A DNA stretch of 64,000 nucleotides from Paractinoplanes atraurantiacus (GTDB lineage Bacteria > Actinomycetota > Actinomycetes > Mycobacteriales > Micromonosporaceae): positions 62,001 through 126,000 of the forward strand of contig NZ_OBDY01000019.1 in NCBI RefSeq assembly GCF_900215205.1, read 5' to 3'. A program made the position numbers and the translations under genes. Below the pieces are notes generated by a model, which did not search any database, was not told where the DNA came from, and worked only from the letters and a program-made list of their open reading frames with translations. Numbering within the stretch: position 1 is the stretch's first letter; each line of letters begins with the position of its first letter. Positions 16,895 to 21,442 of this stretch are shown here, one piece after another.

Positions 16895-18508
16895 GTGGCG
16901 GTGCGTAATCTTTTCCGGATGCGGGAGGACGTAGGCGAGGTGACCGCTAGCCTGCATCGCCCAGTTACCGACAGCAGCCGGAGCAGACCCGTGCCGTACG
17001 ACAGCTTCGAGTGGCAGCAGGAGCCGCCGCCGAGCAACGGCGTACCCCGATCGGCCTGGACCCGGCAGCACAAGCGCCTGTCGCGCTGGCACCGCCCGTA
17101 CACGGCGGTCCTGGTCTTTCTCGATCTTCTCGCCGTCCTGTCGGCGAGCTACCTCGCGGCGACATACCTGGAAAAGGCGAAATCCGGCTTCCAGGAGCGG
17201 TCGCTCGGGTTCCTGCACGGCGCCGAGCTCTTCTACTTCTTCGCGTACCTCGTGCTGCCGCTGGGCTGGCTGATCCTGCTGTGGGCCAACGGCACGTACG
17301 ACCGGCGCTACCTGGGCCTGGGCAGCGAAGAGTTCAAACGCATCGTCCGCACCTCGGTCACGGTCGTGGCCTGCGTGTCGCTGCTCGCGTTCGCCACCAA
17401 GACCCAGCTCTCGCGTGGCACGGTCGCCCTGGTCTCGCTCAGCGCGGTGCTGTTCCTGCTGCTCGACCGCGTGCTCGCCCGCCAGGTGCTGCACTTCGCC
17501 CGGCGGCGCACCGGGCACGGCGCCCACCGGATGATCCTGGTCGGCACCCTGCCCGAGGCCCTCGAGGTCTACACCGCGGTCACCCGCAGCCCGGCCGCCG
17601 GCCTGATCCCGGTCGCGATCCACATCACGGACGGTTACGCCGCCGCCCGCGGCATAGAGACGCCGGTGCCGGTCTACGCGGCCCGCGACGTGCTCTCGCT
17701 GGTGCGTGAGGTCGGCGCCGACACGATCGCGGTCTGCGGCTCGGCCAGCGCCGAGCCGGGCGAGCTGCGCCGCCTGGCCTGGCAGCTCGAGGGCACGGGC
17801 GTCGACCTGGTGGTCGCGCCGCAGCTCACCGACATCGCCGGCCCCCGGGTGCACATCCGCCCGATCGAGGGCCTGCCGCTGCTGCACGTCGAGGAGCCGA
17901 CCCTCTCCGGCCCCGGCTGGCTGATCAAAAACCTGCTCGACCGGGTCGCCGCCGGCATCGGCCTGCTGCTGCTCAGCCCGATCCTGCTGCTCATCGCGAT
18001 CGGCATCAAGCTTTCCGACCCGGGCCCGGTCTTCTTCCGGCAACCCCGCGTCGGTCACGAGGGCCGGACGTTCCGGGTCTGGAAATTCCGGACGATGTAC
18101 GTCGACGCGGAAGAGCGCAAGCGCACGCTGGAAGAGCTCAACGAGTCCGACGGCATGCTCTTCAAGATGAAGAACGACCCCCGGATCTTCGCCTTCGGCG
18201 CCAAGCTGCGGGCCACCTCGCTCGACGAGCTGCCCCAGCTGATCAACGTGCTCAAGGGCGAGATGTCGCTGGTCGGCCCGCGCCCGCTGCCCGCCGACGA
18301 CGGCGACTACCTGGGCGACGTCCGCCGCCGCCTGCTGGTCCGGCCCGGGATAACCGGTCTGTGGCAGGTCTCCGGCCGTTCAGATCTTTCGTGGGACGAG
18401 GCCGTACGCCTGGACCTGTACTACGTCGACAACTGGTCCCTGACGTACGACCTCAGCATCCTCTGGCGCACGATCTGGGTCGTCCTGAAGCGCAAGGGCG
18501 CCTATTAA
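16895..18508 (+). CDS. exopolysaccharide biosynthesis polyprenyl glycosylphosphotransferase
   Basis: A 537-residue membrane enzyme that transfers a sugar-1-phosphate from a nucleotide sugar to undecaprenyl phosphate, starting an envelope polysaccharide. About four N-terminal transmembrane helices (residues 70-200) and a CoA-binding-like middle domain precede the C-terminal bacterial sugar transferase domain (PF02397), visible as LLDRVAAGIGLLLLSPI, DPGPVFFRQPRVG, FRVWKFRTM, TSLDELPQLINVLKGEMSLV and GPRPL. GTG 16895 gives the longest form; ATG 16919 is an alternative. Its end is 4 bases from the stop of the convergent hydrolase gene. Confidence 0.9.
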   Translation: MAVRNLFRMREDVGEVTASLHRPVTDSSRSRPVPYDSFEWQQEPPPSNGVPRSAWTRQHKRLSRWHRPYTAVLVFLDLLAVLSASYLAATYLEKAKSGFQERSLGFLHGAELFYFFAYLVLPLGWLILLWANGTYDRRYLGLGSEEFKRIVRTSVTVVACVSLLAFATKTQLSRGTVALVSLSAVLFLLLDRVLARQVLHFARRRTGHGAHRMILVGTLPEALEVYTAVTRSPAAGLIPVAIHITDGYAAARGIETPVPVYAARDVLSLVREVGADTIAVCGSASAEPGELRRLAWQLEGTGVDLVVAPQLTDIAGPRVHIRPIEGLPLLHVEEPTLSGPGWLIKNLLDRVAAGIGLLLLSPILLLIAIGIKLSDPGPVFFRQPRVGHEGRTFRVWKFRTMYVDAEERKRTLEELNESDGMLFKMKNDPRIFAFGAKLRATSLDELPQLINVLKGEMSLVGPRPLPADDGDYLGDVRRRLLVRPGITGLWQVSGRSDLSWDEAVRLDLYYVDNWSLTYDLSILWRTIWVVLKRKGAY

Positions 18509-18512
18509 AGCT

Positions 18513-19361
18513 TTAGCTGTGGGGACACGTGTCCCGGTACTCCTGGATCGCGGATCCGCTGGGTGCCGGGCACAGGAACTGGTCGTAGCGGGTGTCGTTG
18601 TCGATGAAGCGCTTGAGCCACGAGATCGAGTACTTCGCGACGGTCACGTTGGCCGAGGTCGGCGCCGAGTGGCTGGCGTTGTTGAGTTCCAGGTACGCCT
18701 TGTCCGGCGCCGACGTCATGCTCGTGTAGAACGGCTCGGAGTGTGAGCTGACCGGCGCCACCGTGTCACTCTCGGCCCCGATGATCATCGTCGGCACCCG
18801 GTCGGTGCTCCAGCTCTTCGTGCCGTGCCAGGGGGTCAGCGGGATCGCGGCCTGCAAAGACGGCCGGGTGCGCGAGGCCGACAGGCTGCCGCCGCCGCCC
18901 ATCGAGTGGCCCATGACGCCGAGCCGGGTGGCGTCGATCCGCGTGCGGACCGAGCTCTGCCCGGTCAGGTAGTCGAGCGCGGCCAGCAACTGCGTGCCCC
19001 GGCTGTCGGGCTGATCCAGCGTGCTGTTGGTGTCGATCGTCATCACCACGAAGCCCTGCGAGGCGAGCCGCGGGCCGAGCCACGACACGGCCGACTGCGA
19101 TGCGGTGAAGCCAGGCGAGATGGCGACGGCCCCGAAGGTGCCCGAGGCGGTGCTGGTGGGGTAGTAGATCGTGCCGCCGCCGAAGCCGCTGACCGACGAG
19201 CGGGCCACGGTGACCTGGGCGATGGCGAACGATCCGCGGGTGGCCTCGATGCTGGCGTTGGTGGGGGCCGGACCGCGCTCGTAGGGGTTGGCGGCTTGGG
19301 CGGGTGCGGCCGGCGCGGCCACGGCGAGGGCGACCGCGGCGATCAGCGCGAGTCTCTTCAT
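18513..19361 (-). CDS. secreted polyester hydrolase, cutinase/PET-hydrolase (PETase-like) family
   Basis: A 282-residue alpha/beta hydrolase with a Sec signal peptide ([23 protein letters not shown]) and mature start [11 protein letters not shown]. It aligns by eye along its full length with Thermobifida cutinases, LCC and the Ideonella PETase: [18 protein letters not shown], nucleophile S153 in [15 protein letters not shown] with W178, D199 in ESDTVAP, H231 in [16 protein letters not shown] and the C264-C279 disulfide. Oddities: the oxyanion aromatic is F85 rather than tyrosine, and the residue after H231 is S232, as in Ideonella PETase, rather than phenylalanine. Polyester hydrolysis is expected from family; PET activity is inferred. 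Confidence 0.93.
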
Positions 19362-19446
19362 GGAGCACTCCCTGGGGTGTGGGGTGTCGCACGTGTATCG
19401 ATGTGCGTCGATCGTTGATCGCTTCGTTACTCGCCGGTAATCCCAA

Positions 19447-19461
19447 TTGGCACCCTGCCAA
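19447..19461. promoter_or_regulatory. TTGGCA-N3-TGCCAA palindrome between hydrolase and LytS-like kinase
   Basis: TTGGCACCCTGCCAA is a perfect inverted repeat with a 3-base centre, located 86-100 bases upstream of the polyester hydrolase start and 51-65 bases upstream of the kinase start. It is the strongest symmetric element in this divergent 150-base spacer and is a candidate operator for either gene. The binding protein is unknown. Confidence 0.4.
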
Positions 19462-19511
19462 CACGGTATGACCATTGGACGAATCGACCCGTAGCCGTCA
19501 ATATCTGCTGC

Positions 19512-20702
19512 GTGAACCAGGTCGGAAGCGTGCTCGCGGTCGTCGCCGTCCTCGCCGCCCTGGCCGCCGCCGTCCTCGCCGTGGTGCGGCTCCGGGCCCG
19601 CCGCGGCATCGCCACCGCCATGCAGCGGGCCACCTACGACGTCCTGCACACGGCCGCGCTCGCCGCCGAGCCGCTGCGCGGCGGCCTCAGCCCCGCCTCG
19701 GCCGGCAAGGCCGCCCGCCACCTGCGCGCCCTGGTCGGCGCGGCCGGCCTGACCATCGCCGACGGCGACCGCTGCCTCGCCTTCGACGGCCGCGGCAGCC
19801 ACCACGCCGAGCAGTTCACCGCCGCCGCCACCCGCGCCCTCGACACCCACCGCTCGGTCGTGCTCGCCGCCGCCGACCTGCCCTGCGACCGCGTCGACTG
19901 CGTGGTGCGCGGCGCCGTCGTCGCCCCACTCTCCGGCCCCGACGGCCGCGCGGCAGCCGCCCTGGTGGCCGTGGCCGACGACCATCCCGCGCCCGGGCTC
20001 GTCCAGGCCACCCTGGAGACCGCCCGCTGGGCCGCCACCCAGATCGCCCTGGCCGAGCTCGAATCGTCCCGCGAGCGCCTGGCCCGAGCCGAGGTGCGGG
20101 CGCTGCGAGCCCAGATCAGCCCGCACTTCATCTACAACGCGCTGACCGCGATCGCCTCGTTCGTGCGCACCGACCCGGAGCGCGCCCGCGAGCTGATCCT
20201 CGAGTTCGCCGAGTTCACCCGCTACTCCTTCCGGGCCCACGGCGACTTCACCACGCTCGCCGAGGAGTTGCGCTCCATCGACCGCTATCTGACCATTGAG
20301 CGGGCGAGATTCGGAGATCGGCTTCAGGTACGCCTGCAGATCGCCCCCGAGGTCTTACCCGTCGGCCTGCCCTTCCTGTGCCTGCAACCGCTCGTCGAGA
20401 ACGCCGTCCGCCACGGTCTGTCCCGTAAACCGGGCGTCGGTATGGTGAGCATCGAGGCACGGGACGCCGGTGCCGAATGTCACATCACGGTCGAGGACGA
20501 CGGCGTCGGCATGGATCCGGAGGTCTTCGCGGCGGGCGGGCCCGAGACCGACGACGGGCAGCACGTGGGCCTGGCAAATGTGGACGAGCGCCTGCGCTCG
20601 GTCTTCGGCGACCACTTCGGCCTGGTCGTGGAGACCGCGCCCGGCGCCGGGACGAAGGTGAGCATGCGAGTGCCGAAGTTCCACCCGGGAGTACGAGCGT
20701 GA
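19512..20702 (+). CDS. LytS-type sensor histidine kinase
   Basis: A 396-residue kinase of the His_kinase (PF06580) family. A single N-terminal transmembrane helix (about residues 4-27) is followed by a GAF-like sensory region, then the phosphoacceptor motif [20 protein letters not shown] with the histidine in S-P-H-F, and an ATPase domain with [10 protein letters not shown] and [10 protein letters not shown]. It would signal to the LytTR regulator encoded by the next gene, whose GTG start overlaps the kinase stop (GTGA). The start used is GTG 19512. The stimulus is unknown. The gene is divergent from the polyester hydrolase. Confidence 0.92.
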
Positions 20703-21442
20703 GCCTTGTCGTGCTGGCCGTCGACGACGAGCCACCCGCCCTCGACGAGCTGGCCTACCTGCTCAACGCCGACGGCCGGGTGGCACACGTGCACCGCGCC
20801 GGCGACGCCACCGAGGCGCTGCGCGTGCTGCGCGACACCGAGGTCGACGCGGTCTTCCTGGACATCCGCATGCCCGGCCTCGACGGCATGGAGCTGGCCC
20901 GCATCCTGCGCCGCTTCGCCCGCCCACCCGCGATCGTCTTCGTCACCGCGTACGACGACGGCGCCGTCGACGCCTTCGACCTGGGCGTCACCGACTACGT
21001 CCGCAAGCCCGTACGGGCCGAACGCCTGGGCGAGTCCCTCCGCCGCGTGGCCGGCCTGCGCACCGTCCCCGCCGCCGCACCCACCCAGCCCGCCGACGAG
21101 CCCGCCATCCCCGTCGAGCTGGCCGGCACCACCCGCATGCTGCCGAGAAGCTCGGTCCGCTGGGTCGAGGCACAGGGCGACTACGCCCGCCTGCACACGT
21201 CAGACGCCTCCCACCTGGTCCGCGTCTCCCTGGCCACCTTGGCCGAGCGCTGGGCCGACGCCGGCTTCGTCCGCATCCACAGATCCTTCCTGGTGCAGAT
21301 CCGCCTGATAGCCGAGCTACGCCTGACCCCTTCCGGCTACGTGGTGAACGTCGACGGCGTAGAGCTCCCGGTAAGCCGCCGCCACACCCGAGAGCTGAAA
21401 GACCGCCTGATCCGAGCCGCCAAGCACGACTGGCAGCGCTGA
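20699..21442 (+). CDS. LytTR family response regulator
   Basis: A 247-residue regulator. The receiver domain has the acidic pair D9-D10 and the phosphoacceptor D55 in VFLDIRMPGLDG, with the lysine of DYVRKPV closing the switch. The C-terminal LytTR DNA-binding domain is visible as VRWVEAQGDYARLHT, FVRIHRSFLVQI and VDGVELPVSRRHTRELK. It is translationally coupled to the LytS-type kinase upstream. LytTR regulators bind two spaced direct half-sites; none is obvious nearby. Targets may include neighbouring genes, but this cannot be read here. Confidence 0.94.
   Translation: MSLVVLAVDDEPPALDELAYLLNADGRVAHVHRAGDATEALRVLRDTEVDAVFLDIRMPGLDGMELARILRRFARPPAIVFVTAYDDGAVDAFDLGVTDYVRKPVRAERLGESLRRVAGLRTVPAAAPTQPADEPAIPVELAGTTRMLPRSSVRWVEAQGDYARLHTSDASHLVRVSLATLAERWADAGFVRIHRSFLVQIRLIAELRLTPSGYVVNVDGVELPVSRRHTRELKDRLIRAAKHDWQR

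Follow-up and report, generated by a model that had tools for sequence, protein, structure and literature searches.

Introduction

Two PET hydrolases, LCC of type I and IsPETase of type IIb, serve as reference points for the enzyme described here. According to the accessible part of the review by Kawai (PMC11219463), type I enzymes have His164 and Phe243 in common, with PHL7 (Leu) as the exception, and type IIb is marked by Trp and Ser/Thr. The same text describes two actinomycete PET hydrolases, Mipa-P and Kubu-P, which do not keep the His164/Phe243 pair. Hence, exceptions to the type I rule are already in print. Richter et al. call the Phe at this position 'strictly conserved' in type I (accessible part of PMC10076380).

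The position of LCC F243, which lies in subsite II and corresponds to position 232 in the enzyme discussed here, has been a frequent target of engineering in PET hydrolases. For TfCut2, Furukawa et al. give an increase from 2.5 to 5.4 nmol/min/cm2 at 65 °C upon the exchange F209S (accessible part of PMC6831586). In the same work H129W alone surpassed the wild type, so that Trp at the position of residue 152 is not simply unfavourable, and the double mutant H129W/F209S fell below the corresponding single mutants. In PHL7, PET hydrolysis at 8 h changed by +14% for L210S and by -32% for L210F, and the variant H185S, in which the counterpart of our H207 is changed as in IsPETase, was destabilised (accessible part of PMC10076380). 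Consequently, the mutants of TfCut2 and PHL7 indicate that His and Ser can function together on a type I scaffold.

In the literature that we searched, mostly short of full text and with Seo et al. known to us via the review, no description of a type I clade with the His/Ser pair was found. Likewise, no paper on a secreted cutinase of Actinoplanes SE50 was found under that name among the matches listed. Actinoplanes is named among the genera with M5-motif PETases (accessible part of PMC12224614).

The gene and its product

Paractinoplanes atraurantiacus is described as a soil actinomycete. In a stretch of 64,000 nucleotides from its genome (the window, to which all coordinates refer), the open reading frame check places a coding sequence of 282 amino acids with an ATG start at 18513..19361 on the minus strand. 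Over these positions, plus-strand frame 1 is interrupted by a stop and is not the gene. A preliminary description had named this reading frame a candidate of the PETase/cutinase family with similarity over its full length. Both statements hold, since the Pfam family PETase (PF12740) covers residues 22-280 and scores 404 bits against a cut-off of 28, and PETases of the PDB match residues 23-282 with E values down to 2e-127. Comparison of the gene with seven clade members (see below) gave dN/dS values of 0.13-0.35 at dS values of 0.34-0.71. The E values and the dN/dS range together exclude a chance match, and the latter indicates a maintained protein. Against NCBIfam NF051441, an equivalog family named bis(hydroxyethyl) terephthalate hydrolase, the protein scores 513 bits, narrowly below the cut-off of 520. 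Four other Ser-type members lie at 492-518 bits; among four members without Ser, three are above the cut-off (532-574) and one is below (498.5).

Residues 1-23 (19293..19361, minus strand) form a putative Sec signal peptide, as read from a basic N-terminus, a hydrophobic core and an AQA-A motif, and the enzyme is probably secreted. Script numbering and alignment confirmed every residue named in the preliminary description, namely F85, H152, S153, W178, D199, H231, S232, C264 and C279, and in addition placed M154. On the minus strand, the codons of H152 and the nucleophile S153, within the motif GHSMGG, occupy 18903..18908, those of the catalytic residues D199 and H231 18765..18767 and 18669..18671, respectively. 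The TCG codon of S232 (LCC F243, IsPETase S238) directly follows at 18666..18668, and T235 (LCC N246) is encoded at 18657..18659. W178 (IsPETase W185) is found at 18828..18830 and F85, at the oxyanion-hole and aromatic-clamp position, at 19107..19109. C264 and C279 (18525..18572 from the one to the other) are the only two Cys of the protein and align with the conserved pair, for which a bond is predicted. The earlier statement that a second disulfide is lacking is thus correct; it is impossible because there is no further Cys.

The host genome of 10.9 Mb holds a second copy of the family, 66% identical, and two weak partial matches. The second copy has His-Phe-Phe at 231-233, like 7YKO from Thermomonospora curvata. 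Among named relatives, the closest one found belongs to Paractinoplanes deccanensis (92% identity). Nine PETase-family matches were counted in one order-level relative (G049), the most among the 60 genomes searched.

An AlphaFold2 model, calculated from an alignment of 42 sequences (the window protein and 41 proteins of named genomes), has a pLDDT of 90.2, with values below 50 over residues 1-23. Fold comparison by Foldseek and VIA-align gave 7YKP from T. curvata as the best match (Z 47.1, rmsd 0.8), followed by PET40 (Z 46.8), PHL7 (Z 46.6), 1JFR (Z 46.0) and CaPETase 7YM9 (Z 44.6). The superpositions with 7YKP, PET40 and PHL7 (Z 46.6-47.1) have an rmsd of 0.8-1.0 over 259-260 residues. The modelled fold is common to PETases, cutinases and lipases of the family and shows no function.

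A type I scaffold with Ser in subsite II

The features of type I were taken from the accessible parts of PMC11219463, PMC10076380 and PMC12442448: one disulfide, no extended loop, His before the nucleophile, a Tyr/Phe-Met-Trp clamp in subsite I and Phe after the catalytic His in subsite II. The reference sequences of LCC and IsPETase are identical letter for letter to the PDB chains. By script count, the window protein is 57.5% identical to LCC and 50.2% to IsPETase. It has one Cys pair, the predicted single disulfide, and its loop after the catalytic His (H231-W248) comprises 18 residues, as in LCC, compared to 21 in IsPETase. H152 precedes the nucleophile, which the preliminary description had likened to LCC-type enzymes, and F85, M154 and W178 form the clamp. 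In subsite II, S232 takes the place of Phe. Type IIb is defined by Trp before the nucleophile together with Ser/Thr after the catalytic His, and by an extended loop with a second disulfide. From the first pair only the Ser half is present, and with a loop of 18 residues and two Cys the second feature is absent. In a table of 16 positions, where the alignment shifts the LCC counterpart of the second Cys (279), Ser232 is the sole cleft position that agrees with IsPETase against LCC.

S232 after the catalytic His was rightly recognised as an IsPETase-like residue at a functionally important cleft position. The term 'hybrid', in the sense of a mixture of two enzymes, does not fit, since the loop length, the two Cys and H207/F211 instead of S214/I218 all belong to type I. 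Likewise, F85 had been read as a replacement of the usual tyrosine. The 261 aligned rows contain 147 F, 109 Y, 4 L and 1 W at this position, and PET40 also has F. We therefore rejected F85 as a distinguishing feature; F and Y occur family-wide (F 61/Y 13 in the clade described below, F 84/Y 93/L 4 in 181 rows without Ser). Judged by the alignment, the window enzyme is a type I scaffold with one clade-wide change in subsite II, Ser232 for Phe.

The Ser232 clade

Relatives were collected as 292 loci from the own genome, from sets of 60, 250 and 397 genomes, from 396 phylum genomes, from 80 named loci and from 120 stretches. From the 397-genome search the best 30 loci and 40 chosen stretches from outside the family were taken in, and from the 250-genome search part of the matches. 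Nine of the 396 phylum genomes contain a family match. Two loci (L003, L004) without a full-length match were dropped. The unique rows plus five references gave an alignment of 261 rows, in which position 232 is F in 165, S in 77, L in 5, N in 5, Y in 4, M in 2 and A, R or G in 1 each; the Ser share is not a population frequency, because the sampling favoured relatives of the window protein. The 181 rows without Ser at identities of at least 50% have F (165), N (5), Y (4), L (2), M (2) or another residue (3). In an outside-family sample of 57 rows from the 397-genome search, 49 F, 3 S, 2 L, 2 M and 1 N were counted. Two of these three Ser rows, L257 and L260 (86% identical to the window protein), fall into the clade described next and L265 lies outside.

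For a quick tree of 258 rows, columns 85, 152, 178, 232 and 235 were excluded. It places 74 unique Ser rows, including that of the window, in one group with an SH-aLRT value of 89 and with no other residue at 232 inside; an earlier quick tree of 187 rows had given a Ser group of 73 rows (SH-aLRT 93). The support for the clade is moderate. Ser rows outside of it are L265 (placement support 10), L025 and IsPETase. The rows L024, L256 and L105, with Ala, Leu and Phe, respectively, attach directly below the clade (support 98). The position after the catalytic His seems unusually labile at this point of the tree.

Further positions vary together with Ser232. Thr235 is present in 73 of the 74 clade rows versus 4 of the 181 rows without Ser, and position 161 is Ser or Ala in all of 73 clade rows versus Glu in 92 of 110 others. 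His207/Phe211 are found in 74/74 clade rows. Apart from IsPETase there are 76 Ser rows, of which 60 have loops of 18 residues and 16 have loops of 19. Position 152 is His in 65 of 74 clade rows and otherwise Tyr. Thus, as far as alignment and tree can tell, Ser232 and Thr235 are a trait of one clade and not an oddity of a single gene. The preliminary description had considered that its F and S positions might be standard for a large, already characterised clade. For Ser232 the first part applies, as it is clade-standard; no characterised enzyme was identified as a clade member in the literature covered.

Other cleft positions show variation of their own. The motif GYSMGG, with Tyr for His before the nucleophile, occurs in nine unique Actinoplanes-type sequences of the Ser clade (L020, L021, L022, L023, L027, L090, L189, L194, L208), and in the other rows of at least 50% identity position 152 is His, or Trp in two rows. 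Trp178 is exchanged for Tyr in 13 of the 74 clade rows, e.g. L011, L013, L018 and L090. A divergent Actinoplanes-type subfamily (L149, L151, L152, L153; 53-56% identity) has Leu-Asn at 85/86, Asn after the catalytic His, Tyr/His at 178 and Arg/Leu at 207/211. At all these positions its cleft is unlike that of LCC or IsPETase.

The clade consists mostly of Micromonosporaceae (Actinoplanes, Paractinoplanes, Catenuloplanes, Winogradskya, Dactylosporangium, Micromonospora). Five named loci are from Pseudonocardiaceae, two from Actinophytocola, two from Umezawaea and one from Saccharothrix yanglingensis. Some Pseudonocardiaceae sequences reach 90% identity with the window protein, compared to about 80% for members from Micromonospora, and this difference points to a possible transfer.

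Genomic neighbourhood and upstream element

The gene is flanked by a convergent bacterial sugar transferase of the exopolysaccharide type (16895..18508, plus strand) and by a divergent histidine kinase (19512..20702, plus strand; Pfam His_kinase and HATPase_c), for which we use the label LytS; LytTR is likewise a label assigned in this analysis. Ten of the 80 named loci show, as far as the flanks examined reach, a common gene order: MutM-type glycosylase, sugar transferase, PETase gene, LytS and LytTR-type gene. Nine other loci have the gene near an RtcB-like gene, named from its sequence alone. In the part of the flanking genes that was annotated, no regulator common to the LytS and RtcB-like sites was seen. 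L084 and L090, which have Tyr before the nucleophile, occupy the LytS site, like the window gene.

The distance between sugar transferase and LytS differs with the presence of the PETase gene. It amounts to 1007-1283 bases in five loci with the gene that hold both neighbours. Thirteen same-genus loci hold both neighbours and have no PETase gene beside LytS; here the gap is 16-145 bases in eight and 340-918 bases in the remaining five. Gene and intergenic region therefore appear as an optional piece at this site. The eight loci with at most 145 bases (within L299-L313) are candidate empty sites.

The intergenic region (19362-19511) contains a conserved element that spans 19426-19470. Read on the minus strand towards the gene, it comprises an outer part CATACCG (19464..19470), a perfect inverted repeat TTGGCACCCTGCCAA (19447..19461, no strand assigned), the sequence GGGATTACC (19436..19444), which contains the clade-specific core GGATTACC, and an inner part GTAAC (19426..19430). 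At up to one mismatch, 0.02 occurrences of TTGGCACCCTGCCAA are expected in the window; GGGATTACC in the window alone is unremarkable (1 match versus 0.10 expected). A search of the 300 nt preceding each gene detected the core GGATTACC in sense orientation for 47 of 56 Ser-type genes versus 0 of 90 others, at 67-158 nt before the expected start. It was absent in antisense orientation (0/56) and from control windows of the same loci (0/166). Since the rows are related, these counts measure clade-specific conservation rather than independent events. The flanking parts, CATAyCG before and GTAAC after, are more variable than the core, and the core is kept at the second genomic site near the RtcB-like gene. 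Searches of the own genome with two extended patterns gave a single match for each, at the PETase gene.

Nine Ser-type genes have no GGATTACC. Five are the Pseudonocardiaceae loci; the other four are L020, L025, L082 from Micromonospora and L161 from genus g24 in the same family. For the Pseudonocardiaceae sequences of up to 90% identity without the core (L037, L042, L044, L073, L086), a transfer of the coding sequence is possible.

The natural reading of the upstream element, drawn from its conservation, would be a gene-specific promoter or operator. LytS/LytTR was considered as a linked regulator and rejected, because the palindrome tracks the PETase gene and not LytS. Of 29 LytS loci examined, 21 belong to the same genus; the palindrome (up to one mismatch, within 250 nt) lies upstream of LytS in 6/6 of these with the PETase gene and in 0/15 without it. 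It was also absent from the eight further loci (0/8), which are from other genera or second copies and all without the PETase gene. Hence, the element goes with the PETase gene. The palindrome itself was dropped as the conserved element, since it occurs at ten named loci (up to one mismatch, within 260 nt upstream), all at the LytS site, and GGATTACC is conserved more widely. A perfect inverted repeat accompanies the element in Paractinoplanes loci. An RNA element was also considered; Rfam gave 0 matches at its cut-offs in 18400-20800.

Proposed mechanism and alternative explanations

We consider it likely that the gene encodes an alpha/beta-hydrolase of the PETase/cutinase family on a type I scaffold, with Ser232/Thr235 as a clade trait and with the following mechanism. 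S153 would attack the ester carbonyl, with H231 and D199 relaying the proton, as is usual in the family. The backbone amides of F85 and M154 would form the oxyanion hole, and in subsite I an aromatic or acyl group would be held between F85 and W178, by analogy with the family (accessible part of PMC10076380). Ser in place of Phe at 232 probably opens subsite II and would relieve an overly tight hold on the part of the chain past the scissile bond, whereas His152 and His207/Phe211 may keep the remaining cleft rigid as in LCC; both proposals follow from the mutants. The natural substrate would most likely be a plant polyester or a related ester, with PET being incidental. Expression is probably controlled via the upstream element, which stays with the gene at two genomic sites.

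From the analogy with the mutants we infer that Ser232 would raise polyester hydrolysis in this enzyme, also at ambient temperature. The basis of this comparison is thermophilic, as the TfCut2 rates refer to 65 °C and PHL7 is thermophilic as well, and because Ser232 co-varies with Thr235 and position 161, its effect in the clade background may differ. Since the engineered Ser raised PET hydrolysis in TfCut2 and PHL7, the clade would be a natural version of an engineered change.

The enzyme might instead be mainly a lipase or a hydrolase of small esters of the BHET type, with little action on solid polymers, and owe its PETase appearance to common ancestry. Identities of 71% to the Streptomyces exfoliatus lipase 1JFR and of 66% to 7YKO, deposited as a triacylglycerol lipase, are in line with this explanation, as is the NCBIfam family named after BHET hydrolysis. 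The preliminary description had named a closer match to non-polyester lipases as an argument against its proposal. Lipases are indeed among the best relatives; as these carry PETase as well as lipase names, the names do not decide between the two functions. Streptomyces LipA enzymes point in both directions, being efficient on BHET while S2LipA also roughened PET film (accessible part of PMC11169514). Moreover, the residues at 85, 154, 178, 207, 211 and 231 are those named for the terephthalate-binding subsite I of PHL7 (accessible part of PMC10076380). A predominant lipase or BHET-type activity is conceivable, but we regard it as doubtful. Somewhat less probable still, and in our view unlikely, is that Ser232 is near-neutral, was fixed once in the ancestor of the clade and is buffered by Thr235 and position 161, with polymer binding unaffected. 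A single origin covers 74 of the 77 Ser rows (the tree requires at least four changes), and positions 232, 235 and 161 differ together, as expected for such a history. Position 232, however, does not vary across the 74 clade rows, whereas 85, 152 and 178 do. This uniformity is to be read with the definition of the clade, which is the ancestor's group of Ser rows, and reversals may be concealed by the adjoining rows, which carry Ala, Leu or Phe. An exchange to Ser at this position affects the activity of both TfCut2 and PHL7 (accessible parts of PMC6831586 and PMC10076380), which also speaks against neutrality.

A convergent adaptation towards PET, as in IsPETase, could be read from the identical residue at the position of IsPETase S238. 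The clade, however, keeps His152 (65/74, otherwise Tyr), His207/Phe211 (74/74) and a loop of 18 or 19 residues, and the window protein has one Cys pair. Furthermore, it spans many genera, with dS values of 0.34-0.71 between the window gene and seven members, which is unlike a recent adaptation to a man-made polymer. We consider this explanation very improbable. Within the preferred reading of a type I scaffold with a clade trait, we tentatively propose, as less likely than not, a large, old lineage that opened subsite II once, kept the change and has its own upstream element. Its members would be natural polyesterases for ambient temperature that achieve chain release without the route of IsPETase, i.e. 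Trp/Ser, S214/I218 and the second disulfide. The change from Phe to a small residue has reportedly been engineered later into LCC, TfCut2 and PHL7. At least 74 distinct natural Ser sequences with co-varying positions 235 and 161 offer natural backgrounds for this change, and a single reverse mutation could show directly what subsite II does at ambient temperature.

Comparison with known enzymes

A solved structure of the Ser clade was not found; with a profile of 21 clade members searched against the PDB, the best chain was PET40. In a PET screen, those round 1 enzymes that performed best and were well expressed were scaled up; DP043 came from this set and was crystallised (accessible part of PMC12455559). 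Its host strain, Actinoplanes sp. DH11, has a clade orthologue (L049/L015) among four copies, the others being L130, L134 and L152, and DP043 may be a clade member. For the DH11 copies L130 and L134 no near-identical PDB chain was found.

PET40 from Amycolatopsis (8A2C) is 73% identical to the window protein and has F at 85, His before Ser, two Cys and a loop of 18 residues in common with it. It differs in having Phe and Asn at the positions of S232 and T235, Gly for P177 and Asn for H179. The ancestral reconstructed PETases 8ETX-8EU1 (70% identity) have the PWH motif and His207/Phe211, but Y at 85 and an HFAPN loop. T. curvata 7YKO/7YKP (66% identity, with the best Z of 47.1) has F at 85, but an HFFPQ loop, and was deposited as a triacylglycerol lipase; S. 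exfoliatus 1JFR (71% identity, Z 46) is likewise a named lipase.

Among the exceptions to the type I rule, PHL7 (66% identity) is also a type I scaffold without Phe at this site, but has a natural Leu210 instead of Ser (accessible part of PMC10076380). Mipa-P from Micromonospora pattaloongensis and Kubu-P from Kutzneria buriramensis resemble the window protein in having one disulfide, no extended loop and no His164/Phe243 pair, as given in the accessible part of the review (PMC11219463). The Ser clade adds weight to the view that the definition of type I is too narrow. LCC (4EB0), with 57.5% identity, corresponds in His164, His218/Phe222, the loop of 18 residues and PWH, and differs by Phe243 where the window protein has Ser232. 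IsPETase, with 50% identity, has Ser after the catalytic His, W185 and M161 in common with the window protein, but is set apart by Trp159, S214/I218, a loop of 21 residues and four Cys.
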